DNA of 64,000 nt, taken from contig NC_017668.1 in NCBI RefSeq assembly GCF_000284515.1, positions 2,108,001-2,172,000 on the forward strand, read 5' to 3'. A program made the translations under genes and the position numbers. The notes below the pieces were generated by a model. The model worked only from the letters and a program-made list of their open reading frames with translations. It did no database searches and was not told where the DNA came from. Within the stretch, counting starts at the first letter, position 1. The number at the start of each line of letters is the position of its first letter. Origin of the DNA: Halobacillus halophilus DSM 2266 (GTDB taxonomy: Bacteria; Bacillota; Bacilli; Bacillales; Halobacillaceae). This document shows positions 20,609 to 63,468 of the stretch, in pieces.

Positions 20609-21984
20609 GGTTCTAAGTCAATTGTTGGGGTAGGAGGCAAGCTCCTGCCCCTTAACCAACTTGAAAATTTCTTATATGTTTGTATTGATGATGAAGGAGG
20701 ACCTTCAATCGAAGACGATCATATCTCCTGAAACCAAAGGCATTTCGTTTAATAACCTTCGTCTGATTGTTTAGTCCCTCCACGAATCCATTGCTATAAT
20801 TGAAAGTAAAGCTATTCAAGATTTCTTTCTGCCAATTCTTCAAAGTATTAATCCCCTGCATAAACTCCCATACACCTGCTTTTTCTACCTGCTTATAGAA
20901 GTTATGTAACTCTTTCTTAACCTGAGACGGTTGTTCAACTCCAATGTTCTTCGCTCTCTCAAACCATTCTCTAAAAGATTCCTTCAATTCATAGGAGGTA
21001 CGCATGTCTTCCGACATGCTTAGGTAGCGTTCTAGATGCCAGCGTTGCCTTTCCGTTAAGTTCTCTTCACGCTTATAAAAGACATGCTTTTTTCGCTTAC
21101 ACTGCTTCCTATCGTAATGATGAAATTCTTTCTGAACACGCCTTCTCACTCGTTCGAGAGCCCAGTAGATGTAGCGACAGAAGTGAAAACGATCAGCCAC
21201 AATGATAGGGCTGCCCAAGGCTTTTTGGACGGCCGATTTGAAGGCGTGACTCATATCCATAATCACCATCTCGACCTCCGATCCCTTCTCGCGAAGATAA
21301 TCTCGCACGGTATCCACGGAACGATCCGGAAGAATATCCAAGAGTTGACCGGTGTCTCCGTCGGCAATGACGACTTGGTACTTTCCTGCACTCGTATCTC
21401 CTTTGTATTCATCAATCGCAATCACAGGCGGAAGGGTTTCCACCTTCTCCAACATAGGCATGGCCAACTCATCAAAGCGGCGCATAACTGTGGTTGGAGA
21501 AGTACGAAATAAGTCAGCTGTATCTTTGAAGTTCTTTCCCTGAATGACTCGAAGGCCTAAGGCCTGGTTCCACTCCTTCGAGTGACGCTGATACCGCTCA
21601 ACCAGGTCGTTATCTTCAAAAAATCGTTTCCCGCACCTACAACGGTAACGACGTTTTCGGTAGAAGAGGGAGGTGGTACGTTCAAAGATTTTAAGGTGTT
21701 GGATTTTCTGTATTCTGTAGTCGTGGATGCGATCGGTCCATTCTCCGCAATCCTTACACCTGTGATTCTTTCTCGGCAATTCCACATGAAGATGAAATCC
21801 CCCTTCTACTTCTTCACTTTTCTTTATTATCGCCTTTTGTAGTCCTGGTATGGGCATGTTAGAATACACGTACACGCAACTCCTTTACTGCTTGTTTCTC
21901 GACAATTCAAGTGTAGTAAAGATTGGAGCTTGCGTGTTTTTTTATACCAAATTTTTTATCTACCCCAACAAATATTCTAGAGCC
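20609..21984 (-). mobile_element. complete ISL3-family insertion sequence
   Basis: 1376 bp with 25-bp imperfect terminal repeats (19 of 25 match) that start GG and share the inner TTGTTGGGGTAG, at 20609-20633 and 21960-21984. It is flanked by a perfect 8-bp target duplication AAAAAAAT (20601-20608 and 21985-21992), the ISL3 length. One full transposase inside. The right-hand copy of the target lies in the T tract of the lexA terminator. Confidence 0.93.
20652..21875 (-). CDS. ISL3-family transposase
   Basis: 407 aa. N-terminal zinc finger (CKDCGEW near 40, CRCGKRF near 79), an HTH region, then the DDE catalytic core: D155 (VIAIDEYKG), D207 (VIMDMSHAF), E366 (NGFVEGLNNQ), with ADRFHFCRY between. 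No frameshift or stop, so probably active. Start: GTG 21875 gives full length but is only 4 bases from GGAGT; GTG 21869 is also possible. Confidence 0.93.
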   Translation of the reverse strand: MYVYSNMPIPGLQKAIIKKSEEVEGGFHLHVELPRKNHRCKDCGEWTDRIHDYRIQKIQHLKIFERTTSLFYRKRRYRCRCGKRFFEDNDLVERYQRHSKEWNQALGLRVIQGKNFKDTADLFRTSPTTVMRRFDELAMPMLEKVETLPPVIAIDEYKGDTSAGKYQVVIADGDTGQLLDILPDRSVDTVRDYLREKGSEVEMVIMDMSHAFKSAVQKALGSPIIVADRFHFCRYIYWALERVRRRVQKEFHHYDRKQCKRKKHVFYKREENLTERQRWHLERYLSMSEDMRTSYELKESFREWFERAKNIGVEQPSQVKKELHNFYKQVEKAGVWEFMQGINTLKNWQKEILNSFTFNYSNGFVEGLNNQTKVIKRNAFGFRRYDRLRLKVLLHHQYKHIRNFQVG

Positions 21985-22033: not shown

Positions 22034-22657
22034 TTAATGAACTGTACGGTATAAACCTACAACACGTCCGAGAATAGCAACATCATTCAGAAGAATAGGT
22101 TCCATCGTAGCATTTTCAGGCTGTAACCGAATATGGTTTCTTTCTTTGAAAAAGCGCTTAACGGTAGCTTCCTCATCCTCAGTCATGGCTACTACAATGT
22201 CGCCGTTTTGAGCAGTCTGCTGTTGTCTTACAATGACCATGTCACCATCCAGAATACCAGCTTCAATCATACTTTCACCCTGTACCACAAGTACAAACGT
22301 GTTATCGTCCGTACCGGCTAAAGAGTCCGGAAGGGGCACGTATTCTTCTATATTCTCTACTGCGGTAATCGGAGAACCAGCTGTAACTTTACCAATGACA
22401 GGTGCATAGGAGGCTTCGCTTCTTGGGATACTGTGATCTTCCTCTAACTCTATCACTTCGATAGCTCTTGGTTTAGTAGGGTCTCTACGAATGTATCCCT
22501 TTTTTTCTAAACGCGATAGGTGTCCGTGAACCGTTGAACTGGATGCCAGGCCAACGGATTGACCGATCTCACGGACTGAAGGCGGATAACCTTTCATAAT
22601 TACTTGCTCTTTAATAAAATCTAATATTTCTTGTTGTCTCTTTGAAAGTTTACTCAT
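22034..22657 (-). CDS. lexA: SOS repressor LexA
   Basis: Represses DNA-damage genes and self-cleaves with RecA*. 207 aa: winged HTH ([20 protein letters not shown]), cleavage site A93-G94 (VTAGSP), catalytic S129 (QGESM) and K167 (ATVKRF). GAGGTG lies before ATG on the minus strand. A LexA box at 22721-22734 in its own upstream region gives autorepression; the divergent operon carries three more boxes. Confidence 0.97.
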
Positions 22658-22720
22658 AGATTTACACCTCGTACATAGGATTTATAGTAACCACATTGTA
22701 CCATGCTTACTTAAATAATA

Positions 22721-22734
22721 CAAACAAGCGTTCG
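22721..22734 (-). promoter_or_regulatory. LexA box 1 (lexA side)
   Basis: CGAACGCTTGTTTG on the minus strand, 64 bases upstream of the lexA start and just upstream of its likely promoter (TACAAT -10). Confidence 0.75.
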
Positions 22735-22744
22735 AAAAACCCGG

Positions 22745-22772
22745 TTGACAAGAACTGTTGTTCGTATATAAT
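22745..22772 (+). promoter_or_regulatory. sigma-A promoter of the yneA-like/yneB/ynzC operon
   Basis: TTGACA (22745-22750), 16-bp spacer, TATAAT (22767-22772). LexA box 2 fills the spacer. Confidence 0.85.
22751..22764. promoter_or_regulatory. LexA box 2
   Basis: AGAACTGTTGTTCG, GAAC-N4-GTTC core, lying between the -35 and -10 of the divergent promoter. Confidence 0.85.
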
Positions 22773-22787
22773 TAGAATTAGAAAAAG

Positions 22788-22801
22788 CGAACATTAGTTC
22801 T
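22788..22801. promoter_or_regulatory. LexA box 3
   Basis: CGAACATTAGTTCT, just after the predicted transcript start of the SOS operon. Confidence 0.82.
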
Positions 22802-22803
22802 TA

Positions 22804-22817
22804 AGAACGTTCGTTCC
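22804..22817. promoter_or_regulatory. LexA box 4
   Basis: AGAACGTTCGTTCC, 16 bp from box 3 and 8 bp before the ribosome site of the small peptide gene. Confidence 0.8.
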
Positions 22818-22837
22818 TAAAATTGGAGGGTCTAATC

Positions 22838-22933
22838 ATGTTCAACAAACTGTCAAAGCTTGATATTACGTACCTGGTGCTGTTTATCGCAAGTTTAGCC
22901 TTTCTTTACTTTTCAATGGTCTCCATTGGATAA
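22838..22933 (+). CDS. 31-aa SOS-controlled membrane peptide in the yneA position
   Basis: Too short for most gene finders. ATG 22838 follows GGAGGG by 7 bases, behind a consensus promoter and three LexA boxes. The peptide has a short charged head (MFNKLSKLD) and one hydrophobic segment (YLVLFIASLAFLYFSMVSIG) that would span the membrane. In B. subtilis this slot, between lexA and yneB, holds YneA, a membrane-anchored LysM protein of about 105 aa that halts division after DNA damage. Here only a membrane segment remains and no LysM domain follows. I infer a minimal division or membrane effector; function untested. Confidence 0.72.
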   Translation: MFNKLSKLDITYLVLFIASLAFLYFSMVSIG

Positions 22934-22965
22934 TCTATTATATGATGAATGAGAACACTTAATAG

Positions 22966-23646
<681 letters not shown>

Positions 23647-23741: not shown

Positions 23742-23975
23742 ATGTTATCTAAAGAAAAAATTGATCGTATAAATGAACTGGCTAATAAATCTAAGCAAGA
23801 AGAATTAACCGCTAAGGAAAAAGAAGAACAACAGGAGTTAAGACAGGAATATCTGAAGAATGTTCGTAAATCCTTTAAGAATCAGTTAAAGGGTGTTACT
23901 GTTATTGACCCTGAAGGAAAAGATGTTACACCTAAAAAATTAAGAGAAATGCAGGAAAATGAAAAGAAAAACTGA
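23742..23975 (+). CDS. ynzC: UPF0291 protein YnzC
   Basis: 77 aa, highly charged helical hairpin ([20 protein letters not shown]). Conserved family with a known three-helix fold and unknown function. AAAGGGG precedes the ATG. Same place as in B. subtilis, after yneB and before tkt. Confidence 0.88.

Positions 23976-44253: not shown

Positions 44254-46281
<2,028 letters not shown>

Positions 46282-62830: not shown

Positions 62831-63468
<638 letters not shown>

Follow-up and report, generated by a model that had tools for sequence, protein, structure and literature searches.

The lexA-yneB gap of Halobacillus halophilus DSM 2266 raises the question of what is encoded at the position that holds the division inhibitor YneA in Bacillus subtilis, and how such a product could act. 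The window, as used here, is the whole stretch of 64,000 nucleotides analyzed (NC_017668.1, positions 2,108,001 to 2,172,000). An earlier note, made from the letters alone, had described in this gap a 31-codon gene with a charged head and one membrane segment, preceded by a clear ribosome site, a consensus promoter, and three LexA boxes. All of these elements are found in the window, together with a fourth, weaker box. The reading frame extends from ATG at 22838 to TAA at 22933 on the plus strand and translates to MFNKLSKLDITYLVLFIASLAFLYFSMVSIG (31 aa). The features of the locus are as follows, in window coordinates.

22034..22657, minus strand: lexA, SOS repressor gene, transcribed away from the peptide gene (TIGR00498, 262 bits; cut-off 110.95)
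22721..22734, no strand: LexA-type box with one mismatch, lexA-proximal (motif scan, CGAACN4GTTCG)
22745..22772, plus strand: promoter of the peptide gene, TTGACA-16 nt-TATAAT (12 of 12 consensus matches)
22751..22764, no strand: LexA-type box with one mismatch, within the promoter spacer (motif scan, CGAACN4GTTCG)
22788..22801, no strand: LexA-type box with one mismatch, downstream of the -10 element (motif scan, CGAACN4GTTCG)
22804..22817, no strand: LexA-type box with two mismatches (same site in locus L011)
22825..22829, plus strand: ribosome site GGAGG (sequence; a GGAGG-like site in 41 of 42 family loci)
22838..22933, plus strand: gene of the 31-aa single-span membrane peptide (translation, homologue searches, alignments; topology read from the sequence)
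22981..23646, plus strand: yneB, resolvase-like (NF049883, 349 bits)
23742..23975, plus strand: DUF896 (ynzC-type) gene downstream of yneB (PF05979, E 3.2e-31)

A conserved gene under probable LexA control

The sequence of the peptide indicates a charged head (residues 1 to 9), a hydrophobic helix (residues 10 to 28), and an outer end of three residues. NCBIfam and Pfam searches with the peptide return no match, hence none to the YneA model NF010723 at its cut-off of 60 bits. A LysM domain is absent from the 31 residues, and the 47 nt up to yneB are too short to encode one. Because of this short distance, and because a scan of 22600-23050 found no terminator-like sites, yneB is probably cotranscribed with the peptide gene. 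An ISL3 family transposase gene lies just downstream of lexA (20652-21875, minus strand; NF033550, 353 bits).

In the family, which takes in Halobacillus and Thalassobacillus, a search with the peptide is positive in 43 of 44 genomes (E ≤ 2.9e-7), and YneB is likewise present in 43 of 44. The genome G019 (1000 contigs, 6% contamination) shows no yneB match and a peptide match at chance level only. All 42 complete lexA-yneB loci encode exactly 31 aa with zero indels, in an extraction that listed ORFs starting with MF first; the 43rd locus is split by a contig end. The earlier note had named a lack of conservation of the start, ribosome site, and frame in relatives as grounds for abandoning its reading, and all three are kept in the family loci. 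The 41 distinct nucleotide sequences show minor-base frequencies of 0.18, 0.10, and 0.41 at the three codon positions. Across 820 pairs, pN/pS is 0.21; in the 71 pairs that are unsaturated, it is 0.17. The peptide is under purifying selection, and the gene is real rather than a chance ORF.

The LexA motif is not enriched in the genome as a whole, with 56 sites at no more than one mismatch compared to 119 for a reversed-pattern control, so that isolated sites carry little weight. LexA control of the peptide gene is instead suggested by the clustering of three one-mismatch boxes within 81 bp beside lexA. The box at 22721 is more probably the operator of lexA itself. The arrangement recurs in relatives, with boxes counted up to two mismatches. 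In 42 family gaps, the promoter (at most two mismatches) is present in all 42, each gap contains three to four boxes, and 39 have a box in the spacer; 27 further named peptide gaps (from L152 on) all carry the promoter, with two to three boxes each and a spacer box in 15. In nine named relatives that lack an inhibitor ORF, the gap has shrunk to 130-191 nt and retains one to two boxes, with the promoter in two of the nine; the box that persists near lexA is mostly of the CAAAC type. Since ORF-less gaps mostly lose them, the promoter and the additional boxes accompany the gene.

Elsewhere in the genome, 15 other LexA-type sites were retrieved, 4 of which precede tested proteins: a YolD protein, two Y-family polymerases, and a GyrB/ParE-type ATPase read as ParE. 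YolD, Y-family polymerases, and ParE are the kinds of genes expected in an SOS regulon. Within the window, a LexA-type box at 44267-44280 precedes a GyrB/ParE-type gene, and at another, at 63285-63298, no ORF passed the filter used. In the H. halophilus genome, LexA-type boxes also stand before three copies of a related small gene of ∼73-77 aa (L323, L328, and L329), two of which are divergent from a 72-aa gene; these are possible unrecognized SOS genes.

Distribution and relationship to YneA

Of 96 named lexA-yneB loci found, 80 were kept: 48 contain a peptide of 30-31 aa, 21 a LysM-type YneA frame (one of them, L193, is shorter and was left out of the extraction), 2 a tailed form described below, and 9 none of these. 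Peptide loci belong to Halobacillus, Thalassobacillus, Sediminibacillus, Oceanobacillus, Virgibacillus, Terribacillus, Gracilibacillus, Lentibacillus, and one metagenome-assembled genome, and LysM-type YneA loci belong to Bacillus, Metabacillus, Neobacillus, Mesobacillus, Cytobacillus, and Priestia. The ORF-less gaps (L178, L179, L185, L190, L197, L204, L207, L209, and L210) indicate an apparent loss of the inhibitor ORF in Halolactibacillus, Streptohalobacillus, Gottfriedia, Ectobacillus, and others. A further 18 loci have the peptide beside lexA and yneB, two with 34 aa (L117 and L118) and one with 27 aa (L127). One of the 48 named peptide loci, Virgibacillus-like, comes from a record titled Roseburia sp. 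(L176, NZ_QWLJ01000003.1), which is probably mislabeled or contaminated.

Across 299 genomes of the order, 37 encode the peptide, 187 have a YneA above the cut-off, and none has both (lists compared by eye), compared to about 23 genomes expected to have both under independence with kinship ignored. The count of 37 (E ≤ 1.1e-6) was taken from 42 matching genomes; the five dropped had E values of 0.0036-0.0082, and one of these, G224, may carry a diverged true copy. A copy was seen beside lexA or yneB in 35 of the 37 genomes; G162 has it beside yneB, and G279 is the remaining one. A full YneA encoded elsewhere in H. halophilus, which would have spoken against the earlier note, did not appear: NF010723 run on the whole genome reaches 39.1 bits at its best place, which is not at the peptide, compared to the cut-off of 60, and none of 29 LysM matches passes that cut-off. 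No earlier description of the peptide was found in the open-licence PMC literature.

The relationship to YneA is not apparent from direct comparison. The peptide profile scores 16.0 against 20 Bacillus-type YneA N termini, a value reached by 109 of 500 shuffles, and by 63 of 500 if shuffling is confined to the helix. A mapping onto YneA residues K5, E6, F10, V11, and F14 is plausible by eye, but its register is ambiguous and it is given no weight here. The set of YneA N termini and the tailed proteins aligned over just four columns.

The tailed forms provide an indirect connection. These proteins of 58-94 aa at the lexA-yneB position consist of a peptide-like head and helix followed by a hydrophilic tail with no LysM domain, a layout resembling that of SosA. 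They are found in Halalkalibacterium and Halalkalibacter (L206 and L208, start codons picked by eye) and at ten further loci (L280-L282, L284, L285, L288, L290, L292, L293, and L304). The peptide profile scores 39.4 against 11 of the 12 tailed N termini (L288, nearly identical to L284, was omitted), with a null of 11.6 (standard deviation [sd] 2.9) and 0 of 300 shuffles reaching the score. Used as queries, the tailed proteins L206 and L208 gave weak hits at the peptide locus of five genomes (E 0.001-0.006). The 27 loci of the tailed-form search comprise 10 tailed forms, 5 with the peptide itself, 1 LysM-bearing form (L294), 3 at lexA-yneB without an ORF passing the ribosome-site filter, and 8 dropped as having no lexA nearby. 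The ten further tailed loci all lack a LexA-type box at one mismatch or fewer. The open-licence PMC literature covered by a search aimed at the peptide contained no description of tailed forms.

L294 lies at lexA-yneB in genome G087 and contains a LysM domain (PF01476, 31.7 bits). Its N terminus scores 50.0 against the tailed proteins (null 14.4, sd 3.2; 0 of 300) and 23.0 against the peptide (null 10.8, sd 2.1; 0 of 300); its source assembly consists of 680 contigs with 5% contamination and is the sole genome of its family in the sample. A search with the L294 N terminus led to L346 (G241), a LysM-bearing protein at lexA-yneB in a genome with YneA above the cut-off at that place. Against the tailed set, L346 reaches a weak 25.4 (1 of 150); its score of 16.5 against the peptide (9 of 150) is not significant. 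In G084, the frame of L352 at lexA-yneB stops right after the helix and has a tailed-type head (SGEEIG), and L343, with no lexA nearby, is a second helix-terminated frame with such a head (SKQEIG). L352 is possibly a second independent helix-only form and L343 its copy.

As the LysM-less intermediates and the LysM-bearing L294 share head and helix with it, the peptide is most likely a YneA of which only the N-terminal head and the transmembrane helix are left. The earlier note had offered this as its alternative, a YneA cut down to its anchor; the idea gains from the tailed intermediates and L294, and loses from the direct comparison with YneA and from the weak or negative scores of L346. The bridge to LysM-bearing YneA is thin and rests mainly on L294. 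The simplest history suggested by these similarities would be that YneA lost LysM and then the tail, possibly more than once. The history may also have run in the opposite direction, as growth with gain of LysM.

The helix is more conserved here than its counterpart in YneA. At equal YneB divergence, peptide identity exceeds that of the N-terminal and LysM parts of YneA in seven of seven bins of nonindependent pairs. In the bin of 65-70% YneB identity, it is 49%, compared to 22.5% and 37% for these two parts, and below 75% YneB identity it is about twice that of the YneA N terminus. Among 61 distinct peptides (the 34-aa peptides L117 and L118 were excluded from the column counts), D9, F16, and Y24 are invariant. 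Conservation at positions 2, 4, and 6 and at the aspartate is partly by construction, since the regular expression used for extraction demanded F/L at position 2, K/N/R at position 4, S/T/A/N/P at position 6, and D after the head; F16 and Y24 were unforced. In the Halobacillaceae list and the list of named loci, D9 likewise never varies. The helical conservation moment at 100 degrees is 7.19, compared to a null mean of 2.92 (p 0.0026), and the conserved face comprises D9, Y12, F16, S19, L20, L23, and M27, with the invariant Y24 alongside. Higher conservation would be expected if the helix had assumed the whole task via one contact face.

Copies in prophages, viral contigs, and a plasmid

Homologues on mobile elements are a new addition to the first observation. 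Eleven copies outside lexA-yneB (L069-L079) have 28-34 aa and nearly fit LD..Y..LF.....LY; they were kept from 16 further matches, of which L080 is weak and L081-L084 were dropped as chance. Ten of the eleven lie in what we take to be prophage early operons, ahead of exonuclease, RecT, and replication genes. A gene of 89-104 aa stands directly upstream of the copy in all seven prophage loci whose ORFs were examined, and one of two such genes tested matches YqaH (PF17448, E 7e-6, below its cut-off). Plasmid NZ_CP129017.1 of Halobacillus litoralis carries one copy beside ArdA, and four IMG/VR viral contigs each contain one. L338, from another family of the order, follows a similar-looking gene and completes the mobile set of L069-L079, L211-L214, and L338.

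Mobile copies are strongly homologous to the chromosomal peptide (score 66.6; null 13.1, sd 3.5; 0 of 300), the copies themselves having been found by similarity. The 300 bp on either side of the eleven copies L069-L079 contain no LexA-type box at one mismatch or fewer. Two peptide queries found no match in the INPHARED phage collection, and PHROGs gives a weak match to phrog_12200 (E 1e-4), of unknown function. The phage copies are possibly a division-control gene of the phages.

Proposed action and alternative readings

A putative minimal division inhibitor, the first of the two readings in the earlier note, is the best account of the peptide. It fits the locus, the LexA-type boxes, the exclusion with YneA, the one-faced conservation, and the capture by phages. 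SOS induction, topology, target, and division inhibition are inferred. Following DNA damage, LexA would be cleaved and the peptide gene transcribed together with yneB. The peptide would insert in the membrane with its K/K/D head on the inside, and the conserved face (D9, Y12, F16, S19/L20, L23, and M27) would dock on one of the membrane helices of the late divisome, with FtsW as the likeliest partner. This contact alone would halt septal wall synthesis, as proposed by analogy with the 29-residue SidA of Caulobacter. We consider it reasonably probable that a 31-residue, probably LexA-repressed helix of the YneA lineage blocks septal wall synthesis in this SidA-like manner through contact with a divisome helix.

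The precedents of SidA, the YneA helix, and Gp11 are the reason for favoring such an action. SidA of Caulobacter crescentus is described as a 29-residue membrane protein that blocks division and acts on FtsW and FtsN (PMC4211646). It is likened here by description: size, membrane location, and SOS control agree, whereas SidA comes from another phylum, and the target of the peptide is a proposed one. Gp11 of phage PhiNM1 is a 53-residue early membrane protein that blocks division of Staphylococcus aureus and disturbs FtsW (PMC11237401). As a small early phage membrane protein with this effect, it forms a precedent for the prophage copies, again likened by description; it differs in its two predicted helices and in targeting MurG and DivIC. 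For B. subtilis YneA, it is reported that the helix binds FtsW at transmembrane segment 7 (TM7) and thereby takes YneA to midcell, that LysM blocks division, and that YneA is degraded by CtpA and DdcP (PMC13396833). YneA shares with the peptide its position between lexA and yneB, the LexA-type boxes and promoter, and a head with one helix; it differs in its length of ∼100-108 aa with LysM, compared to 31 aa with no outer domain and a more conserved helix. The peptide thus has no outer domain on which CtpA or DdcP could act.

Inhibition by a helix alone runs against findings on truncated YneA and SosA. According to the same source, the YneA anchor by itself reaches the division site and binds FtsW, yet it is inactive in blocking division (PMC13396833). 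SosA of S. aureus (77 aa) resembles the peptide, by description, as an SOS gene product encoded beside lexA with one helix and no LysM, but it requires an outer segment (D44) for activity; SosA cut to its membrane part, minus 40 residues, gives no division block (PMC6851548).

The finding on the YneA anchor lends some weight to the reading of the peptide as a noninhibiting anchor, which docks on the divisome and recruits a separate wall-binding partner, as a split YneA, or merely competes. The 29 LysM matches in the genome are possible partners for it. A LysM match within 500 bp occurs at 0 of 50 listed LexA-type sites (56 found; compared by eye), though, and no LysM gene was recognized by eye among the ORFs near the prophage and plasmid copies. 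This reading is considered unlikely, yet it stands first among the rivals.

Slightly more doubtful is an SOS membrane toxin like TisB of Escherichia coli, with the short helix depolarizing the membrane and inducing dormancy. TisB is a short SOS-controlled membrane peptide of 29 aa under LexA control, so that size and regulation agree. It is the toxin of a type I pair whose antitoxin is an RNA, whereas the peptide locus shows no sign of one: the minus strand of 22600-23050 contains no promoter-like or terminator-like site, there is no Rfam match, and the leader fold is ordinary (z -0.34). Together, these results reveal nothing like an antitoxin RNA or a locked leader, weakly so as the strand scan also missed the promoter of lexA. 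Against a TisB-like toxin, the helix also has no charge beyond D9, its conservation is one-faced, and its locus is that of a division inhibitor.

Of the same low probability is a role after DNA damage in regulating another membrane protein, for example a protease, a transporter, or a stress sensor, with no link to division. Regulation of larger membrane proteins is a common role of short single-span peptides. The TM7 residues important to YneA are moreover not conserved: in a comparison of 15 genomes, which used the SEDS gene other than the mur-cluster paralogue (the copy presumed to be FtsW from gene order), proline occupies the P206 column in 5 of the 11 species with the peptide, and H. halophilus has serine there. 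Such a regulator is countered by the locus, the kind of control region, the exclusion with YneA, and the intermediates, all of which tie the peptide to a division inhibitor. For the preferred division inhibitor, the one-faced conservation agrees with a contact to FtsW, but the same comparison speaks against it; the target could be another divisome helix.

An untranslated or leader ORF acting only in yneB expression, to which the position 47 nt ahead of yneB in the same direction would be suited, is very improbable given a pN/pS of ∼0.2, a length nearly fixed across many genera, and the same amino acids preserved in phage copies within a different operon.

Selection on the 31-residue form and its uptake by viruses suggest that one helix alone can stop division. 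In a wider and more tentative proposal, to which we give a little less than even weight, one large branch of the Bacillales lost the wall-binding domain that was the effector of the two-part YneA, the bare helix became a self-sufficient inhibitor of septal wall synthesis acting within the membrane, and temperate phages and a plasmid of these hosts took up this helix, independent of LexA, to halt host division. If true, these elements would stop division of the host early in infection with the same helix. A natural helix-only lineage, more conserved than the YneA helix, would allow a direct test of whether contact within the membrane suffices, and such a test could show which residues stop the septal wall synthase. 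The prophage copies supply further natural variants as a second set, and they suggest that the same switch is used by phages. An inhibitor this short, 31 residues with a defined face, would also serve as a compact tool for probing FtsW.
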